From positions 1 through 27,684 of IMG/VR virus record IMGVR_UViG_3300046000_009640: a DNA stretch of 27,684 nucleotides; one strand, given 5' to 3'. The stretch's first letter is position 1, and the number at the start of each line of letters is the position of its first letter. The DNA comes from a virus. The notes below the pieces were generated by a model. It saw nothing but the letters and a program-made list of their open reading frames with translations. It had not been told where the DNA came from and searched no databases. The translations under genes were made by a program, and so were the position numbers. Below are positions 5,296 to 12,965 of this stretch, one piece after another.

Positions 5296-5886
5296 CTATA
5301 AACCGAGTACCTTCTTCTGCTTATCTTTATATTTAAAGATAAATCCACCCGATGTTTTCTGTTTTAATCTGCAACAGTTTGATATATGTGATGAATATAA
5401 TCATAATCATCTTTGTATATCAATCATTGAATCCCATTCTTTGATAAATTCTCAATCCAACGAGTATTGATTTACTTTTTTAGAACTAATACTATCTTTT
5501 CAGAATTTTCATTTACAAGGATGATTTGTATAATAATGATGATTTTTTGTTGCTTTCTTTAATCAAGTATCATATGCGTGTTTAACATTTTCACTATCAG
5601 TTGCCCATTCAAGGTTTTCTACGCGATTATCAGTTTTAATTCAGTTTTTATGATTAACTGTTCTTTTATTTTCTGGATTCTGTATAAAAGCCTGAGCCAC
5701 TAATCTATGTACTTTACAAGTTTTTTTAAATCAATCTATATACAAAAATGTATTTACATATCAATAATTTAATGTTCATATCAATAATTTAATTTTATTA
5801 AAATAAATACTTTTGACTCTACCAATAGAACTCACCTCATATAATCATTCATATCATACCACTGGTTTCCAAATTTCTGTTTCCAT
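5296..5886 (-). CDS. NUMOD4/HNH homing endonuclease (196 aa, 12 UGA-Gly)
   Basis: Domains in order: NUMOD4 at about 5-30 (EIWKPVVGYEGLYEVSSIGRV), HNH core at about 58-105 with HRLVAQAF, NHKNGIKTDN and VENLEWATDSENV (H60, H79, N81, N87), and a C-terminal NUMOD1-like repeat at about 138-186 (VNQYSLDGEFI, ISNCCRLKQKTSGG). This is the standard layout of free-standing phage homing endonucleases that cut intron- or gene-less alleles and promote their own spread. It is expressed from its own promoter (5987-6014) through a pseudoknotted leader, so its translation is probably restrained. Confidence 0.92.
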
Positions 5887-5904
5887 AGCAATAAAAAAGA
5901 CACT

Positions 5905-5980
5905 CTATCGGGGCGGAGAATTGCATTTACAACCCCGATAGAATGCCCATTAATGGCAATCCTCTCTTTAATGTAAATGC
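5905..5980 (-). ncRNA. 5'-terminal H-type pseudoknot leader (element 2)
   Basis: On the minus strand, in order: S1 GCATTTACA (5980-5972); a 30-nt loop that can hold a small GCC/GGC hairpin; S2 CTATCGGGG (5941-5933); one U (5932); S1' TGTAAATGC (5931-5923); a 9-nt loop; S2' CCCCGATAG (5913-5905). Both stems are perfect 9-bp pairs and they interlock as in an H-type pseudoknot. Predicted +1 of the promoter at 5987-6014 is 5980, the first base of S1. It ends 18 bases before the endonuclease ATG and is followed by TTTTTT. The same architecture occurs at 12592-12654. Confidence 0.72.
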
Positions 5981-5986
5981 GTAGCT

Positions 5987-6014
5987 ATTATATACAGATG
6001 TTAAGGAAAATCAA
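5987..6014 (-). promoter_or_regulatory. Promoter, TTGATT-16-TATAAT
   Basis: Minus strand -35 TTGATT (6014-6009), 16-base spacer, -10 TATAAT (5992-5987). Predicted start about 5980. The -35 lies just 2 bases past the stop of the SSAP gene. It drives the pseudoknot leader and the NUMOD4 endonuclease. Confidence 0.75.
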
Positions 6015-6016
6015 TA

Positions 6017-6694
6017 TTATAATCATAATTCTTTTTTTCTTTTATCTTTAATAGATGAGAAATAACTTGATTGTTTTTCGCTAATACATAGTTTCAATCA
6101 TCGAGTATATAGAAGTTTCAAAGACTCTGAGTCTTTTTCCATTGCTATACTTGCTATGTAGTCATCAAGATCAAGACCAAACTCATCTTGTTGTTTTCCA
6201 TATGGTTTTGCTTTTGGAGTATGTGTTATTTTCTTTTCAACTGTATTTCATTCTTCGTCTATAAGTGGGAGATCTTCGCCAGCATATATATTTATACCAA
6301 GTCAGAATATAGCAAGATTTTTAGTAATACATCGCATTATAGCTGTATTTATTTCAAACATTGTAGCCTTCTGTACTGTTTTATCTCAAAACTTTGTACT
6401 ATAATTATAAGGACTATTAGTCATTGCATTATTAGCTCAATCCATTACAAATAGTTGCATCTTCCTAGTGTATCATTCAATAGTTACTGATGTTTCTACA
6501 TAATATCAAAGTGATTCATCGAAAAAGTAAGGTTTTCAATCAAATCGTAATACTTCAAAACTTGTATCATATCTAGATGCTACAGCATTCCAAGCGTGAG
6601 ACCAAGAAAGGTAAGTAAGATCTTTTTTCTTTTCTGTAAATGATGAACAGTCTACACTTGCGAGAGATTTATATATTTCTGTAAAATTAGTCAT
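6017..6694 (-). CDS. DUF1071/Sak-like single-strand annealing protein (225 aa)
   Basis: Rad52-like phage annealing proteins pair complementary single strands during recombination-dependent replication. Family features seen: DLTYLSWSHAWNAV at 25-38, beta-sheet region ending MDGANNAMTNSP (84-95), and MRCITKNLAIFGLGINIYAGEDLP at 120-143, the C-terminal hallmark of DUF1071 proteins. Nine UGA codons are read as Gly, including MDG and FGLG positions, which are normally Gly in the family. Length 225 is typical. It starts 4 bases downstream of a small acidic gene. RusA and an HNH protein in the same arm complete the recombination module. Confidence 0.88.
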
Positions 6695-6698
6695 ATAA

Positions 6699-6881
6699 TT
6701 ATTGGTTATCAAGTAAAAGTTTTGCTATTCTTGCACTACCACTTTCTCCCTGAGACATTATATAGTGATACAAGTAATGCTCCATATCTTCATTGCTGAT
6801 TGATTCAATCCATTCTTCTACATCCTGAGTTATTTCTTTTTCAAAGTGTTTGTCAGTTAGATAGTCTTTTAGGTTTGTCAT
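6699..6881 (-). CDS. Small acidic helical protein (60 aa)
   Basis: ATG at 6881, TAA at 6699, no UGA. Acidic, helical, with ITQDVEEWIESISNEDMEHY and SGSARIAKLLLDNQ at the end. Start context TAACTTTC 13 bases before ATG. It directly precedes the annealing protein (4-base gap) and could be its partner, but no family is recognised. Confidence 0.65.
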   Translation of the reverse strand: MTNLKDYLTDKHFEKEITQDVEEWIESISNEDMEHYLYHYIMSQGESGSARIAKLLLDNQ

Positions 6882-7237: not shown

Positions 7238-7786
7238 TTATTGAACATTTAAATTATACGACCATTTGTATCAACAAGATGTTTTTTGTTTTCATCTACA
7301 ACAATCAGATATATTATTACTGGAAATTTTATAAAGTTCTGCAGCAGATTTTATAGATATAAAATCTCGTATATAAATATTATCTACAGTATATTGGTAA
7401 ACTACTTTTGATAAATAATGTAATTCTCTTTTCTTTCATTTCCAATAACAAGGACTTTTTGTTCTTCATTCATCCCACATTTGTTTTACATTATCCTTAG
7501 ATGTTCCCCATTTTAAATTATATAAAGAATTATTTTTAGTATTATTATCTAAGTGCATTACTATGGGTAGATTTTCAGGATTAGGAATAAAGTATTTAGC
7601 TACAAGTCTATGATGTTTTTCTTGTCTACGATTTCATTTAAAACATAAAGTAGCACACCTATATCATCATTTAGATGATCATCATTTTAGTATTTTTCCT
7701 TTTCAGGTTACTATACTTTTAATTTCTCAATTAGATCATACTTTATATAATCATTCATATCATTCAATGTCGATCCATTCAATCAT
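7238..7786 (-). CDS. NUMOD4/HNH homing endonuclease (182 aa, 14 UGA-Gly)
   Basis: NUMOD4 at 1-25 (EWIDIEGYEGLYKVGSNGEI), HNH core at about 57-102 with KHHRLVAKYF, MHLDNNTKNNSLYNLKW and KDNV (H58/H59, H78, N81/N82, N99), then a C-terminal DNA-binding region with SAAELYKISSNNISDCCRGK (NUMOD1-like). Fourteen UGA codons, including adjacent pairs, are read as Gly; the standard code leaves no ORF here. It shares domain order with the endonuclease at 5296-5886, but the two differ enough to be independent arrivals or old duplicates. It has its own promoter at 7809-7836. Confidence 0.92.
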
Positions 7787-11619: not shown

Positions 11620-11950
11620 AGTTTCTTTTGGTTATAGTTCAAGATCCTGAGATAGGAAGTCACGGGGCATTTCAGATACAATCCACCCTATATCCCTCCT
11701 TAAATAGAAAGATAGGCTTCCGTCCCTTATTGAGGGATTACACACTTTCGTGATCGTACTAGTACCATTTTTATACTCCTTTCCCTACTAAGAAGCGGGT
11801 GGCGGTTGAGAGTTTCCTAGAAGTAAGTTCGAGTCCTTTCGCTTCGTTGGATAATACGGGGGTAGAATTCTTTAGACTCGCTATCTACAATGTTATCTAT
11901 AGCTTGTTATCTTCACTATAGCACCATCCTTGTTACAGGTTCGAGTATAC
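11620..11950 (-). other. GC-rich structured leader before the HNH gene
   Basis: About 330 bases without a confident gene, visibly GC-richer than the rest. On the minus strand it holds a CACGAAAGTG hairpin, TCCCT/AGGGA, and two strong Shine-Dalgarno sequences that are rare elsewhere here: AAAGGAG seven bases before ATG at 11768 (13-codon ORF to 11727) and AAGGAGG eight bases before GTG at 11686 (47-codon ORF to 11543, two UGA). tRNA-like T-loop sequences (GTTCGAGT on the plus strand near 11828 and 11940) do not fold into a tRNA. Transcription probably comes by read-through of the terminator at 11951-11981. Confidence 0.4.
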
Positions 11951-11981
11951 GAAAAAGCACCAGTCATTTCTGATTGGTGCT
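11951..11981 (-). terminator. Rho-independent terminator of the small RNA
   Basis: Minus strand: AGCACCA, one mismatch, TCA, GAAA tetraloop, TGA, TGGTGCT, then TTTTT. A strong 10-bp stem plus U-run, positioned about 75-100 bases after the leftward promoter. Confidence 0.8.
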
Positions 11982-12054
11982 AAGTCGTCACTCTGATTAT
12001 TACGGAGGATTGGCGACTCCGATGCCAATCAGAGTTATTTTGAATACTTTATTC
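11951..12054 (-). ncRNA. ~100-nt structured small RNA with own promoter and terminator
   Basis: Predicted start near 12054 from the promoter at 12061-12088, ending in the terminator at 11981-11952. The body has a perfect 9-bp stem ACTCTGATT/AATCAGAGT (12035-12027 with 11998-11990). Inside it, GATTGGC/GCCAATC and CGGAG/CTCCG offer mutually exclusive hairpins. No ORF is present. Not recognised as tRNA, 6S, tmRNA or a known riboswitch. It may act as a separate sRNA or as an attenuated leader of the HNH unit. Confidence 0.6.
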
Positions 12055-12060
12055 ATAGTC

Positions 12061-12088
12061 ATATTATTCAAGAATGTATTTCTGTCAA
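12061..12088 (-). promoter_or_regulatory. Leftward promoter of small RNA, TTGACA-16-TAATAT
   Basis: Minus strand -35 TTGACA (12088-12083, perfect consensus), 16-base spacer, -10 TAATAT (12066-12061). Divergent from the rightward promoter at 12120-12147, with 31 bases between the two -35 boxes, so one activator or repressor could control both. Confidence 0.65.
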
Positions 12089-12272: not shown

Positions 12273-12571
12273 TGAAGAAACGAATATATAACGATACATT
12301 CTGATTTGAAGTAGTAATAACAGATAAGAAGAAACACTATCCATATCAAATACCAGATCGAGCAGAAGCAATATGTCATATAGAACCTGATATAGCATAC
12401 TTGTATATTAAAACCAATACTCATAGAGTTCTTGTACACGAATGTATACATATAGCTCAGGGAATACTACACCATAAAGGAATAAAAACTTGATACAATA
12501 ATACTGAGGTACTCGCTTATGTTACAGATTGGATCTATAACGAAATATTAAAAATACTTGAAAATAAATAA
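12272..12571 (+). CDS. Small HExxH metallopeptidase-like protein (99 aa)
   Basis: RVLVHECIHIAQG carries H56, E57 and H60; 19 residues on, NTEVLAYVTDW gives E79 as candidate third zinc ligand, as in gluzincins. No signal peptide, so cytoplasmic. Two UGA-Gly codons (F-G-F at 10-12 and T-G-Y at 73-75). The size is near the minimum for such a fold. Phage proteins of this kind are usually uncharacterised; a role in cleaving a host regulator is only a guess. Confidence 0.72.
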
Positions 12572-12585
12572 TAAATGAATATAAT
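12558..12585 (+). promoter_or_regulatory. Promoter, TTGAAA-16-TATAAT
   Basis: -35 TTGAAA (12558-12563) lies in the end of the HExxH gene; 16-base spacer; -10 TATAAT (12580-12585). Predicted start 12592, the first base of the pseudoknot. Drives the small-gene run and possibly the terminase genes. Confidence 0.72.
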
Positions 12586-12591
12586 ACTCTC

Positions 12592-12654
12592 ACTATAGAC
12601 TTAAATAACTTACTAACAATAAATCCGGGTGTCTATAGTAAGTAGCCCGGATTT
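12592..12654 (+). ncRNA. 5'-terminal H-type pseudoknot leader (element 1)
   Basis: In order: S1 ACTATAGAC (12592-12600), 20-nt loop, S2 AAATCCGGG (12621-12629), one U (12630), S1' GTCTATAGT (12631-12639), 6-nt loop, S2' CCCGGATTT (12646-12654). Two perfect 9-bp stems interlock. S1 starts at the predicted +1 and S2' ends 8 bases before the ATG at 12663, so the folded form would cover the ribosome-loading region. A 7-codon ORF at 12575-12598 overlaps S1 but starts before the predicted transcript. Same architecture as 5905-5980. Confidence 0.75.
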
Positions 12655-12662
12655 TATGTACT

Positions 12663-12965
12663 ATGACAAAAAATGAAATACTATTACAAAGAATAATTAA
12701 ACTAGAAAATAGATTGAATATTGTAGAATCAGATATAGAAAGAAATTGTGAAGTAGCGAACTATAATCAGAAGAACACAGATAAATTATTTAATAAACTT
12801 ATTAAGAAAATATTTTGAAAGAAAAGAAAAGTTGAATATGTAAATTACATTCCTAATAAAAATGAAAATAGTGAATCAGATTTTGAAGAAGCTGAATTTG
12901 GTTCTAAATCTTCAGAATACCAACCTTGCTGATGTCCAAAATGAGTTACTTGCCCTTGATATTAA
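12663..12965 (+). CDS. Coiled-coil protein with Cys tail (100 aa)
   Basis: N-terminal helix with heptad pattern (EILLQRIIKLENRLNIVESD), a basic patch (KKIFGKKRKV), an acidic linker, and a C-terminal C-G-C-P-K-G-V-T-C-P cluster with three Cys where Gly residues are UGA-coded. Four UGA codons in all, three in the last 11 residues. Expressed through the pseudoknot leader; autoregulation by binding that RNA is possible. No family recognised. Confidence 0.65.

Follow-up and report, generated by a model that had tools for sequence, protein, structure and literature searches.

A recurrent class of phage leader RNAs, probably an undescribed RNA switch, with the 5' end complementary to the loop of a terminator-like hairpin

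The window, i.e. the whole stretch of DNA analysed here, is an IMG/VR virus record of 27,684 nt. Its genes are open mainly with TGA read as glycine, the long-ORF coverage being 0.66 with genetic code 25 versus 0.14 with code 11. The left part carries leftward genes and the right part rightward late genes, among them a gp3-like small terminase and a large terminase, as well as portal and capsid genes assigned from position and size only. A structured leader (unit B) is located on the minus strand between the genes of a single-strand annealing protein and a homing-type endonuclease. Promoters and ORF starts are predictions throughout. The features of this locus are:

6017–6712, minus strand: Sak single-strand annealing protein gene, upstream of unit B (SSAP_Sak, 1.7e-37)
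5987–6014, minus strand: promoter TTGATT-16-TATAAT (−35 at 6014–6009, −10 at 5992–5987; predicted +1 at 5980)
5972–5980, minus strand: segment b, GCATTTACA, beginning at the predicted +1
5956–5964, minus strand: segment a, GAGGATTGC, pairing with the 3' half of the hairpin loop, GCAATTCTC (5924–5916), with one G-U pair
5899–5947, minus strand: terminator-like hairpin S2, 15 bp including two G-U pairs, with a 19-nt loop holding b' and a'
5893–5898, minus strand: U-tract TTTTTT, immediately 3' of S2
5296–5886, minus strand: NUMOD4-HNH homing-type endonuclease gene, read in code 25 (NUMOD4 4.6e-11, HNH_3 5.4e-10; also PHROG 59, 3.2e-46)

An earlier note on this DNA had described here a promoter with a 16-bp spacer, a stem segment S1 (segment b) placed exactly at the predicted +1 and one U between S2 and S1'. 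Direct reading of the minus strand and a scan for H-type pseudoknots both find all of these. Segment b pairs 9/9 with the loop part b', TGTAAATGC (5931–5923), which is separated from the 5' arm of S2 by the single U (5932), the remainder of the loop being read as TGTAAATGCAATTCTC followed by CG; loop L3 is AATTCTCCG, 9 nt. The two stems had been given as perfect and of 9 bp each, which is true of S1, whereas S2 comprises 15 bp with two G-U pairs (arms GGCATTCTATCGGGG, 5947–5933, and CCCCGATAGAGTGTC, 5913–5899) around a Watson-Crick core of 10 bp (TCTATCGGGG/CCCCGATAGA); its energy is −23.6 kcal/mol (z −3.3). Thus b:b' and a part of S2 had been recognized, but the full stem, the U-tract and segment a had been overlooked. 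Segment a follows b after the linker TTAAAGA and is separated by CATTAATG from the 5' arm of S2; its partner a' overlaps b' by two bases, and the p-value of this second helix is 0.009. The U-tract is followed by ATTGCT and by the ATG at 5886, 12 nt lying between the end of S2 and the HNH start codon. S2 resembles an intrinsic terminator since TTTTTT and then ATG come after the stem; a simple terminator scan missed it because of the 19-nt loop. Comparison of the unit with GenBank phages at the DNA level gave only a chance-level 33-nt match to Brochothrix phage A9, which was discarded.

The claim that the same plan occurs on the other strand in unrelated sequence also holds, at 12592–12654 (unit A):

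12558–12585, plus strand: promoter TTGAAA-16-TATAAT, predicted +1 at 12592
12592–12600, plus strand: segment b, ACTATAGAC, at the predicted +1, 9/9 complementary to 12631–12639
12608–12615, plus strand: segment a, ACTTACTA, pairing with TAGTAAGT (12636–12643)
12621–12654, plus strand: hairpin AAATCCGGG/CCCGGATTT with a 16-nt loop, followed by TATGTACT
12663–12965, plus strand: ORF of 100 aa (ATG at 12663) behind unit A, at the head of the rightward late genes

In this unit b is followed by the linker TTAAATA, and ACAAT stands between segment a and the hairpin. The loop consists of U, then GTCTATAGTAAGT and AG, and its neighbouring, overlapping halves pair with b and a, as in unit B; the second helix has p = 0.085 and the U-tract is weak (ATTTTATGT). 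No other pseudoknot of the window combines an L2 of 1 nt with 9 or more Watson-Crick pairs in each stem, as units A and B do. Neither a family match in profile searches nor a relative was found for the ORF behind unit A. A T7-like promoter for this unit (TAATACTCTCACTATAG) was rejected, its spacing being one base short; CACTATAG occurs twice in the window, as chance alone predicts, which also counts against such a promoter.

Relatives using code 25 were retrieved with Sak, capsid, terminase and DnaD-like queries; the terminase alignment contained mostly code-11 phages. The set comprises G001 (L023/L033/L034), G003 (L025/L031/L032), L117 with L118, L024 and L026. These genomes are few and several are fragmentary, and overlapping contig pieces were dealt with by hand. 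G001 encodes a tRNA with a UCA anticodon and the discriminator U73 (L033 1342–1417, minus strand), which would fit a phage tRNA-Gly reading UGA. Judging from this tRNA and from the genetic code, the hosts would belong to recoded, code-25 bacteria. No code-25 host genome was located by a tRNA(UCA) pattern scan, where the matches checked were largely tRNA-Ser(UGA) genes, or by a scan of Patescibacteria RNA polymerases, where 20 candidates use code 11; HNH matches within Patescibacteria were uninformative.

The earlier note had advised a two-member covariance model. This was set aside: a pseudoknot lies outside such models and the units share no sequence, so the architecture was scanned for instead. 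Sites combining a hairpin, a T-run and an ORF start were first collected irrespective of pairing and their loops were inspected afterwards, which gave the first four units below; the last two were found later, with the plan already known, among long-leader promoters of the unit type.

G1m, G001 L033 12835–12864, plus strand: before a 145-aa ORF ahead of rightward genes; leader CCGTGAA, loop TTCACGG
G1d, G001 L033 12099–12065, minus strand: before a DnaD-like helicase-loader gene (PHROG 2514, 1.1e-21)
G3d, G003 L032 12760–12727, minus strand: before a homologue of this DnaD-like gene
L117 unit, L117 211–256, plus strand: before a GIY-YIG-type gene (T5orf172 2.8e-11, MUG113 1.4e-16)
G3h, G003 L032, promoter 15432, minus strand: before an HNH gene (HNH_3 2.6e-9), whose start codon is less certain
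G1k, G001 L033, promoter 2166, minus strand: before an apparently non-coding stretch

By eye, the 145-aa ORF behind G1m contains an HExxH-like motif. In G1d the loop is matched 10/10 by the leader segment GCGACCTTGC, located about 75 nt upstream and starting at about +7. In G3d the entire 8-nt loop is complementary to TCGGACAA, which a 12-bp hairpin beginning at +1 carries in its own loop. The L117 unit has the layout GCTTGTAG-TTAAA-TAGATTGC with the loop CTACAAGCAATCTA; together with its GIY-YIG-type gene it is inserted between the small and large terminase genes, and L118, nearly identical at this locus, was not counted separately. In G3h the +1 hairpin ATAAATGTTTGC-atCTCCGACA-GCAAGTGTTTAT has a loop 8/8 complementary to that of AAAAGCTATTAGA-TGTCGGAG-TCTAGTAGTTTTT, and in G1k the loop of the hairpin ACTTC-GTTGCG-GAAGT is 6/6 complementary to CGCAAC of the next, U-tailed hairpin.

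The total is thus eight units from four phages: two in the window, three in G001, two in G003 and one in L117/L118. The lack of further instances in related phages, named beforehand as the outcome that would speak against a leader class, did not occur, and the proposal of a phage 5' leader that keeps its fold rather than its sequence gains from these instances. The predicted position and neighbours are found as well: the units sit at +1 or close to it, and endonuclease or DnaD-like genes follow several of them (HNH in two cases, GIY-YIG in one, DnaD-like in two), the others being followed by function-unassigned ORFs (two) and the non-coding stretch (one). Covariance models of Rfam 15 gave no match up to E = 1 in the window and none apart from tRNAs in the related leaders.

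The rules common to the units are as follows. A TTGnnn-16-TATAMT promoter is present in 8/8. The pairing segment is confined to about the first 25 nt of the transcript; in most units segment b or a 5' hairpin begins at +1 or within about 2 nt of it. In some units the pairing segment is bare, and in others a 5' hairpin presents it in its loop, which kisses the terminator loop. Pairing involves the whole loop or its 3' half in all units, leaving no more than about 3 nt before the 3' arm of the stem (S2'). A, B and L117 possess two pairing segments, with TTAAA(nn) linking b to a; in all three, one U precedes b', and a' is followed by (N)G, the G standing just before S2'. The plan originally proposed for the class (two 9-bp stems and a short third loop) therefore fits a part of it, while the kissing 5' hairpins and the two-segment arrangement of A, B and L117 depart from it. 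The stable stem with a U-tract behind it, placed between promoter and ORF, is the anatomy of an intrinsic terminator or attenuator, the tract being weak in unit A; ATG follows the hairpin in seven units, 7–17 nt on where measured. Primary sequences, loops included, are unrelated between units.

How far the complementarity exceeds chance was estimated in several ways. The own loop gives a complement of 7–10 nt in six units, versus 0–7 nt for swapped loops. Against random genomic leaders, the longest loop-leader complement has p = 0.0006 (B), 0.002 (A), 0.006 (L117), 0.012 (G1m), 0.0016 (G1d) and 0.0003 (G3d); Fisher combination over the four units found without the pairing (L117, G1m, G1d and G3d) gives 8.6e-8. 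The 16-nt spacer itself marks an enriched promoter class, with 38 sites versus 4–18 for each other spacer length. With a unit defined as a T-tailed hairpin of at least 8 bp and a loop-leader complement of at least 7 nt, 6/38 TTGnnn-16-TATAMT sites carry one versus 0.15 expected from random anchors, which are not composition-matched (Poisson p about 1e-8), and 0/107 sites with other spacer lengths do. After removal of the preselected A and B, four units remain versus about 0.14 expected.

These numbers bear on the view that the hairpin is an ordinary terminator of the upstream gene next to an unrelated promoter, the complementarity being due to chance or a by-product of local inverted duplication. 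Short AT-rich leaders do match by chance: dinucleotide shuffles of the own short leader give p of only 0.02 for B and 0.08 for A, and in about 1.2 Mb of other loci, mostly from phages not using code 25, 8/94 hairpin/T-tail/ATG sites reach 7 nt, four of them being HNH leaders (L009, L010, L013 and L016, with L010 and L016 apparent duplicates). Such an origin is nevertheless very improbable in view of eight units in four phages, the confinement of the enrichment to 16-nt-spacer promoters and the common TTAAA linker and loop layout. The decisive evidence is that the plan recurs in relatives.

The neighbourhood of unit B offers a further comparison. The Sak protein of G001 is 72% identical to that of the window, and behind its gene there is only a short hairpin with a T-run, the HNH gene and the unit being both absent. 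Unit B is found where the HNH gene is found (in the window and not in G001), and this single comparison, which is only suggestive, would fit a cassette composed of both. Elsewhere in the window, a second NUMOD4-HNH gene (7238–7786, minus strand) has the same promoter type with a leader of just 16 nt and no unit, so HNH genes can do without the unit leader. One could also regard the inverted repeats as a DNA-level element, i.e. a site of recombination, binding or nuclease insertion, given that some units adjoin mobile nuclease genes (HNH, GIY-YIG) and that the G001 Sak locus is devoid of both unit and nuclease. We consider this extremely improbable: a same-strand promoter, the +1 position, the U-tract and the ATG indicate RNA, and 5/8 units have no adjacent nuclease gene.

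The promoter, the near-+1 position, the complementarity, the U-tail, the ATG spacing and the recurrence in unrelated sequences can all be read directly from the sequence. They suggest, with roughly an even chance of being right, a promoter-proximal conditional terminator (attenuator) governed by pairing of the 5' end with the terminator loop. Transcription would start at the TTGnnn-16-TATAMT promoter, and the early RNA would carry a segment complementary to the loop of the U-tailed hairpin, presumably pairing with the emerging loop before the 3' arm of the hairpin is synthesised. Segment a on the 3' half of the loop would hinder the terminator and lead to read-through, because the a-helix ends 0–3 nt before the S2' arm, a distance too short for spanning; that the a pairing and the S2 stem would exclude each other is argued from this geometry. 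Segment b on the 5' half (in A, B and L117) would favour termination, since its helix is compatible with the hairpin as an H-type pseudoknot (in A and B with an L3 of 6–9 nt) while competing with a. The balance between a and b, set during transcription, would tune the output of the downstream gene and could be shifted through a protein, another RNA or the polymerase speed. By energy, the S2 stem outweighs the leader pairings in most units, so that read-through would need a kinetic origin; G1d alone has the leader pairing as its predicted minimum. In L117/L118 the hairpin stands between the terminase genes, where a terminator acting at all times would shut off the late genes if the unit's own promoter did not replace their transcription, hence either the hairpin is conditional or this promoter drives the late genes.

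Alternatively, the units may produce a compact stable RNA of about 65–145 nt that ends at a leaky constitutive terminator, similarly to type III toxin-antitoxin systems, with the pairing stabilising the RNA or shielding its 5' end and the gene expressed via read-through. Promoter and U-tailed hairpin do flank a compact fold, the 5' end is paired in A and B, and G1k precedes an apparently non-coding stretch. However, 7/8 units directly precede an ORF start, tandem repeats and a toxin gene are absent, and there is no conserved sequence for partner recognition, which makes this explanation unlikely.

The earlier note had favoured translational restraint of a toxic nuclease. In general terms, the fold beside the AUG would hinder the ribosome, or would bring a 5' end devoid of Shine-Dalgarno (SD) sequence near the AUG for near-leaderless initiation. 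The end of the fold is indeed 7–17 nt from the AUG, and many 16-nt-spacer promoters of the window, G001, G003, L117 and L026 have their predicted +1 only 14–24 nt before the ATG. Hairpins masking the ribosome-binding site (RBS) control homing endonuclease genes of T4, a downstream promoter relieving the masking of the SD, and the hairpin of seg43(25) in Aeromonas phage 25, a very stable one, stands directly 5' of the RBS and leaves it unmasked (PMC2988022). An SD signal was seen in 2/119 genes of the same five genomes versus 2.6 expected by shuffling, and upstream of none of the seven ORFs behind units; in line with this, Absconditabacteria are listed as SD-scarce (PMC10783764). Classical RBS masking is therefore unlikely in these phages. 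Moreover, the AUG itself is unpaired, the U-tract would be superfluous for such control, and the leaders also precede DnaD-like genes and a late-side operon. Translational control in either form is thus quite unlikely, and restraint of a nuclease is not the best fit to a U-tailed hairpin.

Returning to conditional termination, the recurrent leaders are probably an undescribed type of RNA gene switch because the same design recurs in unrelated sequences at eight sites in four viruses. Tentatively, and with considerable doubt, one may go further and regard them as a general, protein-independent RNA timing device of code-25 phages, in which the nascent 5' end on the terminator loop would decide whether the polymerase continues, used both at operon heads and in portable cassettes travelling with homing-type nuclease genes.

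Some HNH and DnaD-like leaders of other phages show related loop-leader complementarity. L213, L214 and L216 (other hosts, not code 25) carry a hairpin about 40–150 nt before their DnaD-like genes, ahead of the start codon. Its loop is complementary to a stretch immediately 5' of the ATG, and L213 and L214 have another complement of the loop farther upstream in the leader; the match is kept despite differing sequence (GTGAACC/GGTTCAC, CCCGAAC/GTTCGGG, CTGAACC/GGTTCAG), and these leaders look like a related switch. A possible variant pairing with the start region is the L031 leader at promoter 1162 (minus strand), where the loop of GGTTAGAAAT-GTTAAGG-ATTTCTAGCC is complementary to a downstream CCTTAAC just before the ATG. 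In L009 (395–440, plus strand) the 3' arm of a 12-bp hairpin holds the AGGAGGT Shine-Dalgarno sequence of an HNH gene, which resembles, by analogy, the RBS-masking arrangement of T4 type. Other structured regions were noticed in the same phages. At 11956–12088 (minus strand), in the divergent region of the window, a promoter-like site TTGACA-16-TAATAT is followed by a leader with alternative pairings and a hairpin AGCACCA...TGGTGCTTTTT that resembles a terminator; the hairpin lacks an immediately following start codon, and the product is possibly a small RNA. About 300 nt at 11630–11950 (minus strand), before an HNH-like ORF (11619–11167), are free of long ORFs, rich in short inverted repeats and without Rfam match. 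The divergent region of G001 (L033 12350–12760, plus strand) has two stretches ending in U-tailed hairpins (12528–12556 and 12728–12755); they look like structured non-coding RNAs and have no Rfam match.

Homology and covariance searches cannot see an architecture that is kept through a complete change of sequence, and similar switches may therefore be widespread yet missed. The units offer a simple model of attenuation through terminator-loop pairing and a possible way for inserted nuclease genes to reside within essential operons.

Searches of the open-access literature found no phage leader described as pairing its 5' end with a terminator loop. Small self-cleaving ribozymes (HDV-like, twister, pistol) were set aside on topology, and Rfam gave no match. 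Several known systems are nevertheless similar in part. The hairpins of T4-type homing endonuclease genes (I-TevI, I-TevII, I-TevIII, segB, mobE) also form a structured leader beside the start codon, the likeness extending to free-standing HNH or GIY-YIG endonuclease genes (PMC2988022), whereas in our units there is no SD, the hairpin is U-tailed, its loop pairs with the +1 region and non-nuclease genes are served too. Type III toxin-antitoxin loci (ToxIN, CptIN, AbiQ) have the same order of promoter, pseudoknot RNA, Rho-independent terminator and gene (PMC5086642), but here one of the two pseudoknot stems is the terminator; the tandem RNA repeats of this type are missing from the leaders of A, B and the others read directly, and no ToxN/AbiQ-type endoribonuclease gene lies downstream of the units. 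The LEU element of Actinobacteria likewise is a predicted leader pseudoknot with an alternative fold (PMC1262725); its conserved element, leucine-codon leader peptide and SD pairing are not seen here. Among leader attenuators with a terminator before the gene, ANTAR/EutV dual-hairpin antitermination shares with the units a promoter-proximal U-tailed hairpin before the ORF, an alternative upstream pairing (predicted in the units) and, as in several of them, two leader hairpins (PMC3369931). In contrast to that system, the loop sequences here are not conserved between units, and the upstream element pairs with the loop of the terminator, as a pseudoknot or a kissing complex, rather than with its stem.
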